From an uncultured Flavobacteriales bacterium (lineage in GTDB: Bacteria; Bacteroidota; Bacteroidia; Flavobacteriales_D; Sanyastnellaceae): DNA of 59,371 nt. Made by a program: the position numbers and the translations under genes. The stretch lies in the NCBI GenBank assembly GCA_938085105.1, contig CALKGK010000057.1, positions 1 through 59,371 of the forward strand. The letters run 5' to 3'. This document shows positions 2,564 to 43,302 of this stretch, in pieces (the stretch's first letter is position 1; each line of letters starts with the position of its first letter). The notes beneath the pieces are model-generated. The model was not told the DNA's origin and searched no databases. It saw only the letters and a program-made list of their open reading frames with translations.

Positions 2564-3651
2564 AACGAATTCTCCTCGAGAATTTTCATCAATTCAATGT
2601 TCAGGTACAAGCGCTCCCGCCCCATTTTTTCGGAACGGAGGTAGCCACTTTCTTCCAACTGCTTTAAGTATCCCCCCACCGTTTTTGGCGTACCGAGTTG
2701 GAGATCAATCAAGTCTTGGCGCTTGGTGTAGGGCAGGCGAAACAAGACTTCAATCAATTCTTTGGAGTACACCTTGGGCAACTGCTGCTTGATGCTTTCC
2801 CCCGTGCGCTCCATCAAACGTACGATCTTATCCAAACGATCAAAAGCGGCCTTGGACGTTTGTTCAACCATATCCAACATGTAAAGTACAAACGGCTCCC
2901 AAGCTCCTTTTTGGGTAACTCCTTGAAGCAAGCGGTAGTATTCTTTGCGGTGCTTCATGATGTATTCACTCAAAAACAAAACGGGCACATCAAGCAGTTG
3001 TTCCATTTTCAAATGCAGCAATAAGAGTACTCTTCCTGTTCTTCCGTTCCCATCTGAAAAAGGGTGAATGGCTTCAAATTGATAATGAGCCAGCGCCATC
3101 TTGATCAAGGGATCGAGCGCATCATCGCCGTTGATGAACTGCTCCAACTCCGCCATTTTTTCACGAATCACTTCCTCGCCTTCCGGTGGAGTATAAATCA
3201 CTTGACCGTAGTTGTTGCTCAGTTGCGTACCCGCATTCACACGAATTCCCGAGCTGTTTTGCTTGATGCACTGAACAATCTCAACACATAAATTGGTGGT
3301 GATGAACGGATGCTCCTTCAAGCGCTCAAAGCCCAGCCAAAGTGCTTCTTTGTAGTGAATTACTTCTTTCTGTGCTCCGTAACGGAACTTGTTTTCACCC
3401 ACATAGCTTTGGTACAATTTCTCATTGGTGGTAACGATGTTCTCAATTTCAGAACTTGCCTTTGCCTCCTGTAAATGAATACTATCAATAAAAAGGTTGG
3501 AATTGGGCAAGTTGCGGAAGGCCCCATTCAATAGCGCCAAAGACCTGCTCGCCGCAATCACTTTGCGCAAGACGGTTTTGCTTTCCAGATCCACGTTTGG
3601 AGGAAGTGGAGGAAGCGAATTAAAGGCTTTGTTGTTTTCAGGCGCAAGCAT
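2554..3651 (-). CDS. Fic-domain protein (AMPylase family) with built-in inhibitory motif
   Basis: A 365-residue Fic/DOC family protein. The catalytic motif HPFSDGNGRTGR is complete at residues 196-207, including the catalytic histidine, the phosphate-binding loop and the final arginine, so it should transfer AMP (or another nucleotide moiety) to protein hydroxyls. An N-terminal SSEIEN (66-71) fits the inhibitory helix motif [S/T]xxxE[G/N]; because it precedes the Fic domain, this is a self-inhibited class II Fic protein. An N-terminal region (Fic_N-like) comes first, and the C-terminal 70 residues look like a winged helix. The target is unknown. No separate antitoxin gene is adjacent, consistent with intramolecular inhibition. 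Confidence 0.9.
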   Translation of the reverse strand: MLAPENNKAFNSLPPLPPNVDLESKTVLRKVIAASRSLALLNGAFRNLPNSNLFIDSIHLQEAKASSEIENIVTTNEKLYQSYVGENKFRYGAQKEVIHYKEALWLGFERLKEHPFITTNLCVEIVQCIKQNSSGIRVNAGTQLSNNYGQVIYTPPEGEEVIREKMAELEQFINGDDALDPLIKMALAHYQFEAIHPFSDGNGRTGRVLLLLHLKMEQLLDVPVLFLSEYIMKHRKEYYRLLQGVTQKGAWEPFVLYMLDMVEQTSKAAFDRLDKIVRLMERTGESIKQQLPKVYSKELIEVLFRLPYTKRQDLIDLQLGTPKTVGGYLKQLEESGYLRSEKMGRERLYLNIELMKILEENSFRS

Positions 3652-35329: not shown

Positions 35330-35947
35330 TTACCTTTGATTGAGTTTTTGAATGAGACCAATGGCACTGCGCACCTCGTATTTTGCGAAGATGTTTCTTT
35401 TGTGCGACTCTACCGTTTTGATACTGATGAACAGCTCCTCTGCGATCTCTTGATTCTTTTTATCCTGAAGCACTAGGTCAAGCACTTCTTTTTCTCTTGT
35501 GCTAAGGATGACCTCCAAGTCCCTTTCTTCCTTGGCTTTCATCACCCCACTCAGTAACTGATCTTTGATACTATGGCTTAAGAAGGTCGTCCCATTTTCA
35601 CTGGAAAATGCAGCCAAAAGATCGGACAAGGAATCTGATTTTGAAATTACTCCTGTGGCGCCTGCGTTGATCCAATTTCTCACATCGTCATTTGCCACCT
35701 CTGCTGAATAAATAAATAAGCGTGGGGCTTTTGAGAGTAAAGGCTTTACATAAGGACGTGTATCACCATCTGACAAGTTCAAATCCAATAAAATAAAATC
35801 AACTTCATCCTTCTTCTTCAACCACTGCTCAAGGCGCTGGCAAGAAGTAATCACAATTTGATTGTATTCTCCAACATTCTTCTTCACAAAGTAGTCGATA
35901 GCTTCAGCAATCAAAGGGTGATCATCAACAACAAGGTATGAGGGCAT
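35330..35947 (-). CDS. Response regulator, NarL/LuxR type
   Basis: A 205-residue two-component regulator. The receiver (about 1-120) has the acidic pair in VVDDHPLI, phospho-acceptor aspartate in FILLDLNLSDG (about D54), the conserved Ser in IYSAE, and Lys in VISKSD. The C-terminal LuxR-type helix-turn-helix (about 145-205) has LSTREKEVLDLVLQ and IAEELFISIKTVESHKRNIFAKY, both close to consensus. Its likely partner is the TPR sensor kinase encoded at 36738-38603. A TATTTTTG -7 box (35974-35981) lies 26 bases before the ATG. Confidence 0.92.
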   Translation of the reverse strand: MPSYLVVDDHPLIAEAIDYFVKKNVGEYNQIVITSCQRLEQWLKKKDEVDFILLDLNLSDGDTRPYVKPLLSKAPRLFIYSAEVANDDVRNWINAGATGVISKSDSLSDLLAAFSSENGTTFLSHSIKDQLLSGVMKAKEERDLEVILSTREKEVLDLVLQDKKNQEIAEELFISIKTVESHKRNIFAKYEVRSAIGLIQKLNQR

Positions 35948-36086: not shown

Positions 36087-36647
36087 TCAGTCATTAATAG
36101 AAATCATCAAGGAAAATACTTTTCTTAATGATTGATGAATCTCTCGTTTTTTCAGCCCCAAACGAAGAGATGCGCTTTCCATGCTTTTTCCTTTTACGAT
36201 CATTTGAATCAACGCTCGCTCCTGATCGTTCCTTACTTGAGCGTATGAAGCAGACCCGGCGAATGCCTTGAGTTCCGTTCTCATTGTATAAGAGAGTTCT
36301 ATCCCTCCCTCTAAAGACTGAAAGATACTGCGATGAAGAACTTCAGGCCGGAAAGACTTGGAAACCAACCCTCTTGCTCCGAGTAGGTAGGCCTGTATCT
36401 GGCTCTCTAAATCAACAAAAGAACTGGTCAACAATAGTGGAATTGAATGGCTAAGACTCAAAGAATCTTCTAAAACCAAAATCGTCGACAAATCGGCCAA
36501 TATCACATCGTATTTGCTTTCTTCACGATAGAGGACTGGTGAAAAATCTTGGATCAGCTCGGCAGTGAAATCGGGAGACAGTTCAACTTTCTCTTTCATC
36601 ACTTCAGCCAGTATGGCTTTGGGGTCGATAATTCCTACTTGGATCAT
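36087..36647 (-). CDS. Divergent response regulator with degenerate DNA-binding domain
   Basis: A 186-residue protein (ATG at 36647) shaped like a NarL-type regulator. The receiver starts QVGIIDPKAI, with one acidic residue in place of the usual pair. An aspartate in DVILADLST (about D52) sits where phosphorylation occurs; the Thr/Ser in LLLTSSF and Lys in LVSKSF are kept. The helix-turn-helix region (about 135-186) aligns with LuxR proteins but lacks most consensus residues: NDQERALIQMIVKGKSMES, then LGLKKREIHQSLRK. It lies just downstream of the sensor kinase gene, so they probably belong together. It may be an altered or DNA-binding-impaired regulator. Confidence 0.75.
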   Translation of the reverse strand: MIQVGIIDPKAILAEVMKEKVELSPDFTAELIQDFSPVLYREESKYDVILADLSTILVLEDSLSLSHSIPLLLTSSFVDLESQIQAYLLGARGLVSKSFRPEVLHRSIFQSLEGGIELSYTMRTELKAFAGSASYAQVRNDQERALIQMIVKGKSMESASLRLGLKKREIHQSLRKVFSLMISIND

Positions 36648-36737
36648 GTTCAGGGCTTTGAACAAAAATCGCACAAAACACTGATTTCGAGCTACGAAGA
36701 ATGCCGTATTCCTATCGAAGACCTCTCACGTTCCAAG

Positions 36738-38603
36738 TTACATGGTCTTTGGAATGTCGAAGGAAATTTGGGTTCCGCCATTGTTCTCCAGTTTAAATTG
36801 TCCGCCCAAAGCGAGCACTCTTGCCTTCATATTGTTGAGTCCGTTGCCCATGTTTTCCCCTTCGCTTTCAAAGCCTTTTCCATCATCAATGATCTGAAAA
36901 GAGAAGACCTCTTGTTCTGAGCGAATCTTGATGGTGATGTTGCTGCAATTGGCATGTTTGATGGCGTTGTTCACTGCTTCCTGACAAATTCGGTAAATTC
37001 CCAAAGCCTTGCTGGCCGGAATTTCTTCGGCAATTCTCGGAAAATCAACGTTGGATTCCACTTCAAAACGCTCGAGAAAACGATTCAATTCCTCACCGAA
37101 GTCGCTTAAGCTGATGGCATTTTCCTTGGCCGCCCAAATGGTTTTGCGCAATTCCTGCATCGCTCCTCTGCTAAAATCAGAAATGGCGTCCAATTGTCCT
37201 TTCAACTCTTCATCTTCACTTCGGTAGGAAAGCACATCCAACTTGCTCGTTATTAAGGTGAGCTCAGCGCCAATATGATCGTGCAAATCTCTTGAAATAC
37301 GCACTTTTTCTTCTTGCGCCTCCAGGGCGATGGCTTTTCGCTTTGCTTCTTTTTGAGCAATTCTTTTACGAGCGAAGAGGAAGAGTGCAATCAAAAGAAG
37401 TACTGCAAAAACAATGATTCCTTTAATCCACAGGTCTTTTACCTCGTTGGCAGCCCTCTCCTTTTCCGCTTCAAGCTGATTGGCGAGCGCTTTTGCCTTG
37501 CTTTCCTTCAGTTCCAGTTGCTTTTCCAGAGAAATCACCGTTATCTGTGCTTCCTCTTGCAACATGGAATCTTGGTATGCATTTACCAGATCAACATACT
37601 CAATGGCATTTTTGAAGGTTCTTTTGGCTGAATAATAATCAACAAAACTCTGATAAAGATGCTCCTTCTCTTTCCATGAACCAATATTGCCATACAGCGC
37701 TTCTGCTTCAAATAGATGATTTTTAGCGCTGCGAAGAAGGTTCAATTTGATATCGGTTCGAGCCAAACGAGCGTGCGCAAAGGCCATTCCCGACTTACTC
37801 CCAACTTCTTCATACCATCCTAAAATGTTCTCGAAATTGCTCTTGGCTGATAAATAATCTCCTTGGAGCTCATTGATGACACCCAAATTTCGAAAGTATT
37901 CAGTAGTTCTGATGGATTCTAATTTTTGAGCAAGGGCGAGATCTTCCTTCAAGATTTGCTCGGCAGCAGTTCGTTCGTTCAAAGAAATGAGCTGTGAAGC
38001 GGCGTTGGTTCTGGCCAAGAGGTAGCTCAAAGAATCTCCAACTTCAAGAAATAGCTTGGCTGCTTCCAACTGAGTGTCATGAGCCTCTCGATAGCTTTTA
38101 GCAACACCAAGAAGGTTTCCAACGTTATTTTTTATTTGTGCCGAACGGTAGGCATCGCCCAATTCTAAATAGATCTCTGCGGCTTTGGAATACTCTTCCA
38201 TGGCGAGCTTAAGATTGCCCATTTCTTGGTGAGCAAGGGCAATTTTCGATCTACTCGCTGCAATGCCCGCTCGGTCTCCCGATGCTTCCCTCAAGGCCAA
38301 ACTCATTTCTCCCAATTCCTTTAATCGGGTGTAATTTCCTTCGCTATGGTATGCAAAAGTGGCGTCGTTGTAAGCCAATGCCAAAAGAGAATCCGATTCC
38401 ATTTCTTTCGCAAGAGCGATGGCCTTTTCACCGTACTCTTTAGAAATACTGATGTTCTCGTAAGCCGCAAAGTATGCGATGTCGCGATAAGTTTGAAGCT
38501 CATGAGTGGGTGAATCAAAACTTTTTAACGAGAGTAGGGAGTCCAGTTGTGCATTCAAACACAATCCGCTGAGGAGAAGACTAAGGGTGCAAATCAACTT
38601 CAT
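36738..38603 (-). CDS. TPR-repeat sensor histidine kinase (NarX/DesK type)
   Basis: A 621-residue sensor kinase (ATG at 38603). A signal peptide (ends CLNAQ) precedes about seven tetratricopeptide repeats (roughly 40-350), a coiled coil, one membrane helix (IKGIIVFAVLLLIALFLFA, about 395-413), and the kinase core: dimerisation helix with H441 in ISRDLHDHIGAELT, and the ATPase with N box NAIKHA and DDGKGF. This HisKA_3 layout pairs with NarL-type regulators; one lies two genes downstream. The TPR sensor domain would sit in the periplasm. A near -7 box (TACATTTA) lies upstream. UvrA-like is divergent. Confidence 0.93.
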   Translation of the reverse strand: MKLICTLSLLLSGLCLNAQLDSLLSLKSFDSPTHELQTYRDIAYFAAYENISISKEYGEKAIALAKEMESDSLLALAYNDATFAYHSEGNYTRLKELGEMSLALREASGDRAGIAASRSKIALAHQEMGNLKLAMEEYSKAAEIYLELGDAYRSAQIKNNVGNLLGVAKSYREAHDTQLEAAKLFLEVGDSLSYLLARTNAASQLISLNERTAAEQILKEDLALAQKLESIRTTEYFRNLGVINELQGDYLSAKSNFENILGWYEEVGSKSGMAFAHARLARTDIKLNLLRSAKNHLFEAEALYGNIGSWKEKEHLYQSFVDYYSAKRTFKNAIEYVDLVNAYQDSMLQEEAQITVISLEKQLELKESKAKALANQLEAEKERAANEVKDLWIKGIIVFAVLLLIALFLFARKRIAQKEAKRKAIALEAQEEKVRISRDLHDHIGAELTLITSKLDVLSYRSEDEELKGQLDAISDFSRGAMQELRKTIWAAKENAISLSDFGEELNRFLERFEVESNVDFPRIAEEIPASKALGIYRICQEAVNNAIKHANCSNITIKIRSEQEVFSFQIIDDGKGFESEGENMGNGLNNMKARVLALGGQFKLENNGGTQISFDIPKTM

Positions 38604-38703
38604 GAAGTAAATGTACATTTTCTCGTTTTCTTCTTGCTTGCTTATCCAAATCATGCTCTTACTTACGAAAATGAAGCAATAAAGTTGGGCGAAGATGCTT
38701 TGC

Positions 38704-38715: not shown

Positions 38716-41700
38716 ATGGATGGAAAGCACGATCCCAAATTATCGCTTCGTATTCGCGGTGCACGAGAGAACAATTTAAAGAACATCTCCCTGGACCTCC
38801 CACACCATCAATTGATTGGTGTTATTGGTCCCTCGGGCTCGGGGAAATCTTCCCTGGTGCATGAGGTGATCGCACAGGAGGCTCAAAGTGCTTTTTTGGA
38901 GTTCGTTCCTCGTAGTCAGCATAAATTCCTACCCAAACTTACTCCTGTAGATGTGGACGAAATTGAGGGTTTACGACCTGTAGTGGCTCTGAAACAATCT
39001 GCTGTTCTGGGCACAAAGTCAAGCACTTCGTTGGGCACAAGCACCGGACTCTACGATCATTTCAGACTCCTCTTCGCTCGTTTTGCAGAATCTGAAACTG
39101 AGCAAAAAGCCAAAAGAAGTTTCTTTTCGCATCATCACCCAGAAGGCGCCTGCCAAGAATGCAGAGGAATTGGAAGGGTGGAATTCATCGATGAAGGCAA
39201 GTTAATCCAAGATCCCACAAGGAGCCTCCGTGATGGCTGCCTTTCTCCCACTCTGCCGAACGGATACATCATGTATTCCCAAGTAACGCTGGAATCCTTG
39301 AACATGGTTTGTGAAGCGCACGACTTCAACATTGATATTCCATGGCAAGATTTGAGTGCGTCTCAAAAAGAGGTCATTTTCAACGGGTCCACACGAATCA
39401 AAGTTCCCCTTGGAAAACATAGCGAAGAGAGTCGTTTAAAATGGACGGGCTTAAAAGCAAAAGCGCGGGAAGCCGATTTCTATCAAGGTATTCTGAAAAG
39501 CATGAACGGTATTCTTGCCCGAGATCGAAACCCGAACATTCTTAAATATACCAGTTCAAAAACTTGTCCTTCATGCAATGGAAAACGCTTGAATGATTTG
39601 GCATTGTCGTTCACCATTCTCAACCAGAACATCGCCCATTACAAGGAACTTCCTCTCCGTGAACTTCATGATTCTATACTTGATATCGAGCAAGGTATTC
39701 CCGCTGCTGCATCGGTTTGCGGACTGATGAAAAAACAAATCAAACAGTACCTGGATTTTGGTTTTGAGCTGCTTTCCATGGATTCAAACTTGAGCGAGAT
39801 GTCTTCTGGACAGTCCCAGGTACTCCACATTCTTTCTCAGGTGGATTCTGGTTTGACGGATTTGATTTATGTTTTTGATGAACCGAGCTCCGGTTTGCAC
39901 CCCAGCATGCGCCAAAAACTGATCACCATTTTCAAAAGTCTTGTGGAGATTGGGAACACTGTTTTCATTGTAGAACATGATTTTCAGATGATTGCGCAAT
40001 GCGACCACCTCGTTGAACTTGGTCCAGGAGCCGGCAGCGAAGGTGGTGAACTGCTGTTCCAAGGGACTTTAGATTCCTATTTGAAACAGGCCCCTTCGAT
40101 TACAGCCAAATTCCTTCAGCAAGAAATAAATCGAATTTCTTCAGCCAGAAAACTCCCCGGCTCCATTTCATTTTCGAAAGCTAAGAACTTCACGGGGCGC
40201 GATTACAAAGGGAAATTTTCTGTTCTCCCCGCTAGCCCTTCGACCCAAAGTCAGGAAGACTTCCTATGGATTGAAAACCAATTTCCTGAGGCCATCCACA
40301 TTACACAACAAGCGATTGGAAAAAATGCTCGGAGCAACCCAGCAACCTACATCGGTTTGGCTGAATTACTTCGAGATGCCTTCGCTAAGGTGGCGAAAAC
40401 GGAAGGCTTGGATTTGAAGAAAAGTCACTTCAGTTTCAACACAAAAGGTGGTCGTTGCGAGACGTGCTTGGGTGCGGGAAAAATTGAAGTGGGAATGCAC
40501 TTTTTGGGGAAGGTTGAAACGGTGTGCGAAACCTGCTCTGGCAAGCGGTTCAAAAAGGAGGTTTTGGCTTGCACACTCGACGGAATGAACATTTCAGATG
40601 TTTTCGACATGAGCGTATCGAAGGCAATGGAACACTTCACAAAGGGTAAGGGAAAGCATGAACTGATTCTTCGATGTCTATCGCTTCTCAATGCTTTGGG
40701 CTTGGGTTATTTGATTTTGGGACAATCTTCGGGAAGTCTTTCAGGTGGTGAAGCGAAAAGAATAAAACTGGCCAAACATCTTTTAAGCAATCGAAATGAT
40801 GGTCAGCTGTATCTCATCAACGAACCTGGGGCGGGCTTGCATGAGAAGGACCTCAGTAAGCTCATTGCTCTTCTCAAAAACTTGTGCGAATCTGGACATG
40901 GCGTCATCGTTCATGCCTTTCGAAAAGCCCTTCTTTTGGAGGCGGATGTTTTGCTCAACTCTGAAGATCTTCAGCCCTATTTTGATCCCATCATTCAAAA
41001 TTTAGATCAAAAACACGATAAAAAGGCGGTAAATGAAATCGTGCTAAAAGGTGTCAACACCAATAATCTGAAGCACATCGATCTCGTCATTCCAAAGCAA
41101 AAAATCACCGCAATCATTGGTCGATCAGGGTCTGGAAAGTCTTCTCTCGCCTTTGGCACGATCGCTGCCGAATGCGAATCACGCTACCTAAAAAATTGGA
41201 GTCCGCACATCCAAGATTTGCTCAGACAGAACAACACTGCCGACCTCGAACAAGCCAAGGGACTGAGTGCATGCGTTGCTCTTCGCCAGTTCGAACACCA
41301 AAAGAACAATAAATCCACGGTAGAAACGGTGACGGGAATGGGGCTTCCTTTGCGCTTGCTCTTCTCTCGTTTGTATCAACTGGAGCACCACGATACCGAA
41401 ATAGAGGCCAGCGAATTTTCGTATCACCGAGCCTCTTCGGCTTGCCCCACCTGCAAAGGAAAAGGTGAGGTACAAGTCATTCGAGAAGAAGAGCTCGTTG
41501 CCGATTGGAACGTGGATTTGGCCGAGGCCTTCATTCAAAACAATGCGCTCAATTATTTCACGAACCCTCATGGACAATTCATGGCGGTTTGGAATCAACT
41601 CTCCCAAGAATTCGGTTTTCAGAATGGTCCGCTCAATTCCTGGAATGAAGAGCAGCTGAATTTGTTCTGGCACGGGAGCGGTGATCGCATCTACGAATGT

Positions 41701-43302
41701 ACTTGGCAATTCAAGAACAAAAGCCGAAGCGGAGAGCAAAAACTTGCGGCTCCTTGGCGTGGAATTGTGACGGAACTCTATCAAGAATTCTCCTTGAAAA
41801 AAGACAATAAAAACGCCGATGCACTGCGGAACTTGTTCACTACTGATGCGTGTCCGAAATGCAATGGGAAACGGCTGAATGATCGGGTTTTATCTTTCAA
41901 GCATCGAGGACACTCTTATTACGATTGGAGTGCAATGAGCATTGATTCCTTGAATCACTTTCTTCAAACTGGAGCACAGAATGCAGCAGAGCAACAACTT
42001 TACGCCCGCTGTTTCCGCTACCTCAAACCACTCCTAAATGCTTTGATTGAGCTTGGTTTGGGAGAGGTAAATTTGAAGGAAGGAAAGAATAATTTGAGTT
42101 CTGGAAATCAACGAGCATTGCAATTGGCTGGTGCAAGTCATTCCTCTTTGAGCGGTATGATTTTCATTCTTGATGAACCGAGTTGGGGGATGAACAAAAA
42201 GCAGATCCAAGCCCTTCAGCACATGCTTCAAACTTTGAAGGAAAAGGGAAATACTGTTCTTCTGGTTGAACATCGGAGAGAACTGATTGAAAGTGCAGAC
42301 CACCTCATCGAATTGGGCCCGAAAGGCGGAGAAGAAGGAGGCCGCTTGGTGTATCAAGGGGAGCTTAAAAACGATCTTGCCCAAAGCTCAAAATCCGAAC
42401 AAAACAGAGACGAAGGTTTCACGACTGTTCAGCATGGAACGGATCATGTTTTAGCTTCCTTCGAAGACATTCAGCTCGAAGCCCCCTTCCCCCATTCGTT
42501 GAAGATTCGGGAGTCTCAACTTGATTTCCTCTATTTGGAAGATGAAAAGCAACGTAAAGAATTCTTGAGTAAGGTGATGATGGATGGCCTTACTCTTGGA
42601 CGTTCTCCCTTCGCGAGCGTTGAAGGAAAAGCTGAATCGTTCAAAGTGACCTTTTTGGAGCAAAACCGACCTCGACCAAACACCGATCTCCTGCATTTCC
42701 TGGACTTGTCTGCAACACTCCAAAAAAGCTTTAAGGACTTGGATTCATCGAAAGCGGAAGGTTTGAAAACTGGGCATTTTTCGAGAACACATTCGCTGGG
42801 ACGTTGCTCCTTTTGTAAAGGTTCAGGAAAGGAAGTGATTGCTATGGATTTTATGGATGATCTCAGCAACTCGTGTGAAGCCTGTGATGGAACCGGTTTC
42901 AAGCCAGAGGTACTGATGCATCAATTTGAAGGACACTCCATTCAGGATGTGCTTCACAAAAGCATTGCTCAGCTGGAAGACCTGTGGCCTATCCTTTTTT
43001 CCAGTTCAAAGAAGCAGCTTCACTCGGCTTCACTCCTATTTCAACAGCTCCAACAAGCCCAATTGGGTCATTTGACCTTGGACCGGAGAATCAAGACTTT
43101 ATCTGGAGGCGAATGGCAGCGTGTGCAACTCATCAAGGGACTCTTGGCTAATGAAGCAAAAACAGATGGCCTCATTGTTGACGAAGCTTTCCTTGGTTTG
43201 AACCAGCGAGATCAACAGGCCATGATGGAACTTTACCTGAACCTTGCGAAGATGGGGACCTATGTCCTGCTTTCATCAAACCAAGCATTCTCCTTGCTAT
43301 AG
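38716..43302 (+). CDS. Tandem-duplicated UvrA-like ATPase with four ABC modules
   Basis: A 1528-residue UvrA-like protein; normal UvrA has about 940. Residues 1-770 and 771-1528 are two copies of a UvrA-like chain. Each first module has a P-loop (GPSGSGKSS 38-46; GRSGSGKSS 802-810), Walker B (VFDEPSSGLHP; ILDEPSWGM) but a weak signature (SSGQS 363-367; SSGNQ 1128-1132). Each second module lacks a P-loop but has a good signature (LSGGE 675-679 and 1462-1466). The second Walker B regions are altered (INEPG, VDEAF). CxxC pairs stand at 146, 284, 581, 604 and 910, 1046, 1364, 1387. The role may be DNA damage sensing or drug resistance; no UvrB-binding domain is evident. A leaderless promoter precedes it. 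Confidence 0.9.
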   Translation: MDGKHDPKLSLRIRGARENNLKNISLDLPHHQLIGVIGPSGSGKSSLVHEVIAQEAQSAFLEFVPRSQHKFLPKLTPVDVDEIEGLRPVVALKQSAVLGTKSSTSLGTSTGLYDHFRLLFARFAESETEQKAKRSFFSHHHPEGACQECRGIGRVEFIDEGKLIQDPTRSLRDGCLSPTLPNGYIMYSQVTLESLNMVCEAHDFNIDIPWQDLSASQKEVIFNGSTRIKVPLGKHSEESRLKWTGLKAKAREADFYQGILKSMNGILARDRNPNILKYTSSKTCPSCNGKRLNDLALSFTILNQNIAHYKELPLRELHDSILDIEQGIPAAASVCGLMKKQIKQYLDFGFELLSMDSNLSEMSSGQSQVLHILSQVDSGLTDLIYVFDEPSSGLHPSMRQKLITIFKSLVEIGNTVFIVEHDFQMIAQCDHLVELGPGAGSEGGELLFQGTLDSYLKQAPSITAKFLQQEINRISSARKLPGSISFSKAKNFTGRDYKGKFSVLPASPSTQSQEDFLWIENQFPEAIHITQQAIGKNARSNPATYIGLAELLRDAFAKVAKTEGLDLKKSHFSFNTKGGRCETCLGAGKIEVGMHFLGKVETVCETCSGKRFKKEVLACTLDGMNISDVFDMSVSKAMEHFTKGKGKHELILRCLSLLNALGLGYLILGQSSGSLSGGEAKRIKLAKHLLSNRNDGQLYLINEPGAGLHEKDLSKLIALLKNLCESGHGVIVHAFRKALLLEADVLLNSEDLQPYFDPIIQNLDQKHDKKAVNEIVLKGVNTNNLKHIDLVIPKQKITAIIGRSGSGKSSLAFGTIAAECESRYLKNWSPHIQDLLRQNNTADLEQAKGLSACVALRQFEHQKNNKSTVETVTGMGLPLRLLFSRLYQLEHHDTEIEASEFSYHRASSACPTCKGKGEVQVIREEELVADWNVDLAEAFIQNNALNYFTNPHGQFMAVWNQLSQEFGFQNGPLNSWNEEQLNLFWHGSGDRIYECTWQFKNKSRSGEQKLAAPWRGIVTELYQEFSLKKDNKNADALRNLFTTDACPKCNGKRLNDRVLSFKHRGHSYYDWSAMSIDSLNHFLQTGAQNAAEQQLYARCFRYLKPLLNALIELGLGEVNLKEGKNNLSSGNQRALQLAGASHSSLSGMIFILDEPSWGMNKKQIQALQHMLQTLKEKGNTVLLVEHRRELIESADHLIELGPKGGEEGGRLVYQGELKNDLAQSSKSEQNRDEGFTTVQHGTDHVLASFEDIQLEAPFPHSLKIRESQLDFLYLEDEKQRKEFLSKVMMDGLTLGRSPFASVEGKAESFKVTFLEQNRPRPNTDLLHFLDLSATLQKSFKDLDSSKAEGLKTGHFSRTHSLGRCSFCKGSGKEVIAMDFMDDLSNSCEACDGTGFKPEVLMHQFEGHSIQDVLHKSIAQLEDLWPILFSSSKKQLHSASLLFQQLQQAQLGHLTLDRRIKTLSGGEWQRVQLIKGLLANEAKTDGLIVDEAFLGLNQRDQQAMMELYLNLAKMGTYVLLSSNQAFSLL

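Follow-up and report, generated by a model that had tools for sequence, protein, structure and literature searches.

The window analysed here is a stretch of 59,371 nucleotides from an uncultured Flavobacteriales bacterium. On its forward strand, an open reading frame runs from the ATG at 38716 to the stop codon at 43302 and encodes 1528 amino acids without an internal stop. A preliminary description of this DNA had read the product as a tandem duplication of a UvrA-like chain and had proposed aligning its halves; the intact frame, the alignment and the structural matches of both halves agreed with this reading. The N half (residues 1-765, 38716-41010, +), recognized by alignment, profile scores, model and structure matches, and the C half (residues 766-1528, 41011-43299, +), recognized by model, structure matches and alignment, are 28% identical over residues 1-732 of the N-half query. 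With the UvrA profile TIGR00630, the whole chain scored 915.9 bits against a cut-off of 729.8 and the separate halves scored 538.7 and 385.8 bits, both below it; the whole chain exceeds the cut-off because the scores of the two halves add up. The protein would hence pass as an ordinary UvrA in automatic naming and is presumably so named in databases. A gene for a sensor kinase with tetratricopeptide repeats (36738-38654) is read divergently, 61 bases from the start of the fused gene at 38716, and beyond it lie a gene without a Pfam match (36087-36674) and a response regulator gene (35330-35947).

A direct scan of the protein found the eight CxxC motifs reported earlier (at 146, 284, 581, 604, 910, 1046, 1364 and 1387), four per half, as in class II UvrAs, which predicts two zinc sites per unit. 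In an alignment with E. coli UvrA, both halves had a gap of well over 100 residues at the UvrB-binding domain, and this domain was also missing from both halves of five fused relatives aligned in the same way. The protein therefore lacks the UvrB-binding domain with zinc module that marks class I UvrAs and falls under class II, which is defined in the accessible part of PMC5128194 as UvrA without the UvrB-binding domain. The class II proteins UvrA2 of Deinococcus radiodurans (2VF7) and Ecm16 (7SH1) likewise lack this domain and have four CxxC motifs per unit, and each half of the window protein shares their fold, with a VIA Z to UvrA2 of 34.5 (C half) and 34.3 (N half). Unlike a class II UvrA, which is a homodimer of separate chains with two complete ATP sites per unit, the window protein has two units in one frame, insertion domains that differ from each other and degraded distal ATP sites, leaving one complete site per half. 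With ordinary UvrA (TIGR00630, E. coli UvrA) it shares the ABC modules, the zinc motifs and signature II, but it differs in lacking the UvrB-binding domain and in passing the TIGR00630 cut-off only through its summed halves.

AlphaFold models were obtained for residues 1-1200 (pLDDT 85.8, pTM 0.79) and for the C half, residues 766-1528 (pLDDT 85.6, pTM 0.78). Each modelled half matched UvrA and UvrA2 structures end to end, class II UvrAs including Ecm16 being among the matches, and the predicted fold, that of UvrA with a pair of ABC modules in each unit, places the protein within the UvrA superfamily. The model of residues 1-1200 suggests that the halves could plausibly pair like a UvrA dimer, since a pTM of 0.79 would presumably be hard to reach with a randomly placed second half; the tandem order and UvrA biology point in the same direction.

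Other contigs of the genome encode two ordinary UvrA frames of 964 and 938 amino acids, answering the earlier question of whether a normal uvrA exists elsewhere, together with a UvrB that scores above its cut-off. The fused protein is thus an extra. The ordinary UvrAs of this genome (G000, contigs C45 and C27) and of at least two relatives, G001 and G007, are of two types that form two distinct clades. An accessory role in nucleotide excision repair, in which the fused protein would find damage and pass it to UvrB or to an ordinary UvrA, would suit both this gene content and the predicted UvrA fold. We nevertheless consider it quite unlikely, given that the window protein and the five aligned relatives lack the UvrB-binding domain in both halves and that Ecm16, which lacks it too, acts without UvrB (available portion of PMC10192343).

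We asked whether long chains of this kind, which the preliminary description had expected at more than 1400 residues, occur elsewhere in Bacteroidota. Including the window's, we found 77 distinct complete fused proteins in this phylum, with open frames of 1,497-1,717 residues. They were distilled from 99 complete frames, many of which came from the same genome fetched twice, after frames cut by a contig end had been dropped. A whole-protein search contributed 33 of the 77, and the other 44 came from a scan of named genomes by alignment of the N-half arm, in which 193 encoders were confirmed and the best 80 kept. Among these best 80 of 193 loci, 66 had one complete fused frame, 11 were cut by a contig end and three were split or short; none encoded a single chain with the N-type arm. 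Carriers within the same best 80 included Crocinitomix, Fulvivirga, Lewinella, Neolewinella, Roseivirga, Marivirga, Salegentibacter, Christiangramia, Brumimicrobium and metagenome-assembled genomes of Saprospiraceae and Bacteroidales. Names place 77 of the 80 kept loci in Bacteroidota, and three are titled only 'bacterium'. The whole-protein query gave fused-type matches in 6 of 114 genomes of the window's family (threshold 1e-48), 35 of 399 of the order (1e-52), 8 of 395 of the class (1e-60) and 1 of 296 of the phylum (1e-60), this last being the window itself; these samples overlap, and weaker fused copies may escape thresholds of 1e-48 to 1e-60. The remaining listed matches were single-chain UvrAs. 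One order match (G344) had only a 379-residue frame, and its sequence was outside the later sets.

Five further copies were left out before the counts, one as two contig pieces (G002) and four with two frames each (G286, G566, G157 and G034). By eye, G002 has a degenerate distal site in the N half and a distal Walker A in the C half, and in G566 both halves show distal motifs. The fused genes of L136 (G566) and L130 (G286) are interrupted, one by a stop codon and the other by a split near runs of N, so not every fused copy is readable. A join of two adjacent UvrA-like genes by frameshift or misassembly is a rival reading. A few relatives (L170, L201, L203 and G566) have a split or short gene, with runs of N there in one case, but nothing of the kind was seen for the window. 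The existence of fused homologues refutes this reading, to which we assign a negligible probability: complete fused frames are found in 66 of the 80 kept loci and in 77 distinct proteins, including those of the isolates Crocinitomix catalasitica, Roseivirga spongicola and Salegentibacter species.

Within UvrA, the proximal site is formed by ATP-binding domain I and signature II and lies nearer the dimer interface and the DNA groove, and the distal site is formed by ATP-binding domain II and signature I (PMC6486640, partial text). Direct scans of the window protein found P-loops (GxxGxGK[ST]) only at 38 and 802 and LSGGE only at 675 and 1462, just as the preliminary description had placed the P-loop in the first and LSGGE in the second module of each half. 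The protein retains Walker A of the N half (38-45, 38827-38850, +) and of the C half (802-809, 41119-41142, +), both intact in 77 of 77 family members, Walker B (387-395, 39874-39900, + and 1152-1160, 42169-42195, +), the H-loops and the signature II partners LSGGE (675-679, 40738-40752, + and 1462-1466, 43099-43113, +), which make up two proximal sites. The distal Walker A is absent from both halves; motif patterns and alignment put its approximate former place at residues 480-530 (40153-40305, +) in the N half and 1240-1330 (42433-42705, +) in the C half, where 75 of the 77 proteins have it. By motif pattern, degeneration of the remaining distal motifs is complete or partial: signature I reads MSSGQ in the N half (362-366, 39799-39813, +), as partner of the dead distal site, and the degenerate LSSGN in the C half (1127-1131, 42094-42108, +), the N-half distal Walker B has its aspartate replaced (INEP, 701-709, 40816-40842, +), and the C-half position has an atypical VDEAFLGLN (1488-1496, 43177-43203, +).

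The prediction of one working composite site per half, made earlier for this protein, thus holds for the window protein, with the proximal site as the one left by motif, but it fails as a rule for the family. We scored four motifs per site with our own motif patterns, counting near-misses as incomplete. The proximal site of the N half was complete in 77 of 77 proteins and that of the C half in 76, the exception (L209) being counted incomplete solely through LSCGE. The distal site of the N half was complete in only 3 of 77 (G696, L217 and L228) and that of the C half in 75, missing only in the window's genus (G000 and G001), and these two were the only proteins of the 77 with two complete sites. 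A symmetric pattern of one site per half was rejected as the family rule on these counts. The 33 proteins of the whole-protein search gave the same picture (proximal N 33, proximal C 33, distal N 1 and distal C 31 complete). The H-loop histidine of the N-half distal site is replaced by glutamine in 46 of 77 proteins and by asparagine in 19, the Walker B aspartate is retained in 11, and Walker A is deleted or cut in 21, all of them with 1,497-1,551 residues. On a midpoint-rooted tree of 76 proteins, from which directions of change can only be inferred, each N-half distal motif changed state at least 3 to 6 times and each C-half distal motif once; G292, which contains a run of X, was left out of this set and of the conservation set below. 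Because the N-half distal site is mostly incomplete and the C-half one mostly complete, the family is by its motifs an asymmetric pseudo-heterodimer, with the window protein as its putative proximal-only end point. In the asymmetric ABC proteins TAP and CFTR, one site is consensus and the other degenerate. The window protein resembles them in that, within a half, a complete composite site stands beside a degenerate one, but it differs in being soluble, DNA-binding by homology and equipped with four ABC modules per chain.

A tree was built from 96 halves and single chains, with G667_N, G177_C, G333_C and G030n omitted. In it, all 71 halves of fused proteins fell into one clade with support 1.0, apart from ordinary UvrA, class II UvrA (835-894 amino acids) and a group of short single chains. 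Within the fused clade, the C halves grouped with support 1.0 and the N halves with 0.667, or 1.0 without G696_N. As N and C halves group separately inside one clade, the tree is best explained by one old tandem duplication followed by divergence. The short single-chain group (L138-L142, from G210, G503, G461, G1002 and G945; 757-784 amino acids) forms a clade of its own with support 1.0 and has its ATP motifs in place.

Of seven pairs compared, six had a dN far below dS, and synonymous sites were saturated in the remaining one, G000 with G001. In the Salegentibacter pair L225 and L226, the synonymous difference was 0.10 in the N half and 0.32 in the C half, which suggests recombination inside the gene. 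The loss of both distal sites could mark relaxed constraint on a gene decaying in the window's genus: among the 77 proteins the C-half distal site is lost only there, and the two species have diverged strongly (dN 0.40 and 0.61 by half). Yet both have an open frame of fused length, 51% identical between them, and both retain the two proximal sites, all eight CxxC motifs and the N-half arm, which has a dN of only 0.18. We therefore find decay of the gene improbable; the loss of the distal sites could be drift where the lineage needs the protein less.

The arm just mentioned, the N-half insertion domain (residues 170-285, 39223-39570, +), is the most conserved region of the family by regional identity. 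Its mean identity was 0.733 among 32 proteins of the whole-protein search, compared with 0.575, 0.484 and 0.568 for the other N-half regions, and 0.748 with constant length among 76 proteins; 51 of its 116 columns were conserved at 95% or more. The 44 distinct proteins of the named-genome scan had been fetched with N-half arm patterns, which biases the larger set toward arm conservation, but the whole-protein-search set, fetched without such patterns, gave the same ranking of regions. In each of four control UvrA sets, of 4 to 11 sequences, the arm was the least conserved of the four regions, once by just 0.001. The C-half insertion domain (934-1047, 41515-41856, +) is a different arm with another sequence and a lower mean identity of 0.45. 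A sequence search of the N-half arm against solved structures identified no known specialised arm: ordinary UvrA matched weakly and in part (best E 0.021), as did a single CdiA nuclease (E 0.97). In Ecm16, the insertion domain is required for binding to DNA and also determines the drug-loaded DNA that triggers ATPase activity (PMC10192343, as far as available). The frozen N-half arm points to one conserved DNA target that many Bacteroidota would share, perhaps a widespread adduct or a natural product from their habitat.

Two further features bear on DNA contact. The RSNPAT motif was missing from the C half in 77 of 77 proteins. The DNA-binding arginines of E. coli UvrA are 712, 722, 724 and 730 (PMC3025350, partial text), and in the window protein only the equivalent of 712 is present, in the N half, together with a lysine at 722 in the C half. 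With this motif lost and one arginine of four retained, the grip on DNA, and with it the DNA contacts, may differ from those of UvrA.

Pfam matches were found for seven kinds of neighbour, namely a beta-lactamase-fold protein, a response regulator, a sensor kinase, a secreted protein, a dehydroquinase, a permease and a tetratricopeptide-repeat protein, and 3 of the 10 neighbours scanned had no match. The earlier statement that neither uvrB nor antibiotic genes are adjacent agrees with these data: UvrB is on another contig, and no biosynthetic genes were recognised among the ten neighbours. Across 42 loci, for which the stretches searched differ in length, the largest recurring neighbour family was present at 5, so a recurrent operon partner was rejected and the neighbourhood names no substrate. 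Like Ecm16 or DrrC, the protein could provide self-resistance to a natural product that intercalates into or alkylates DNA and comes from the host or its habitat neighbours, as the structural match of each half to class II UvrAs including Ecm16 and the conserved reading arm would allow. However, Ecm16 and DrrC sit in clusters for DNA-binding antibiotics, the window gene does not, as far as the Pfam scan of ten neighbours tells, and its neighbourhood is not conserved. We regard self-resistance as unlikely in this form; it overlaps with our preferred explanation and differs from it only in the source of the ligand. A part in MADS defence was also rejected, because in the PADLOC mad3 profile E. 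coli UvrA (1.6e-102) scored higher than the window protein (9e-71); a class II UvrA gave 3.5e-76.

Is the fused arrangement new? The preliminary description had not met it before. The fused protein is a real, conserved and asymmetric variant of class II UvrA, but tandem UvrA as such apparently has a precedent by sequence in NCBIfam NF001885 (PRK00635), a profile of 1809 positions. An ordinary UvrA aligned with positions 6-920 of this profile and the beginning of a UvrA unit matched a second time at 938-1055, so that the profile apparently holds two UvrA units in one chain, as the window protein does. Its units, at about 900 positions, are longer than the 765 residues of the N half, and the window protein scored 612.1 bits and a Crocinitomix member 973.5 bits, with the cut-off at 3054. 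NF001885 corresponds to the chlamydial UvrA; the 14 control genomes include no chlamydial one, and the precedent is drawn from the profile. Double UvrAs have been called 'class III'. A literature search, for which subscription journals were mostly out of reach, found no description of a natural tandem or fused UvrA, and the accessible parts of PMC6486640, PMC10192343, PMC5128194, PMC3025350 and PMC518961 contain none. The available portions of two other papers concern an archaeon whose two UvrA copies lie on different contigs (PMC12642639) and UvrA joined to a fluorescent protein (PMC10729960).

Taken together, we favour, with moderate confidence, a class II-type tandem UvrA that recognizes a target through its arm, independently of UvrB, and cycles ATP at its proximal sites. 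We infer the DNA target, the ATP cycle and the biological role as follows. A class II-type UvrA gene would have been duplicated in tandem long ago, which would have placed both protomers of the UvrA dimer in one chain and left them free to specialise. The strictly conserved arm of the N half would read a single defined target, which may be a DNA adduct, a bound ligand or a DNA structure; the C half has a different arm and, in most relatives, the sole distal ATP site that is complete. By motif, the two distal sites are dead in the window's genus and the DNA-proximal pair is left. Hydrolysis on ordinary DNA may then release the protein, and the target may stall hydrolysis so that the protein stays bound, in the manner of a DNA-gated clutch. 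We base this analogy on the proximal-only behaviour of the UvrA distal Walker A mutant K643A, which is more than tenfold faster on native DNA: its ATPase rate is 0.1 without DNA, 1.4 with native DNA and 0.3 per s with lesion DNA (PMC6486640, partial text). Once bound, the protein could displace a ligand, shield the site or pass it on without UvrB. More tentatively, and with considerable doubt, the family might constitute an undescribed group of single-chain asymmetric sensors in Bacteroidota, in which the N half would read an invariant target and the C half would fire the distal cycle, one genus having become a proximal-only clutch.

Because the UvrA dimer, with its four ATP sites, is symmetric, mutating one chain normally alters both protomers. 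The fused family separates the four sites genetically within a single chain and offers a natural test of how such a sensor uses ATP; by motif, four-site, three-site and two-site forms all occur in nature.
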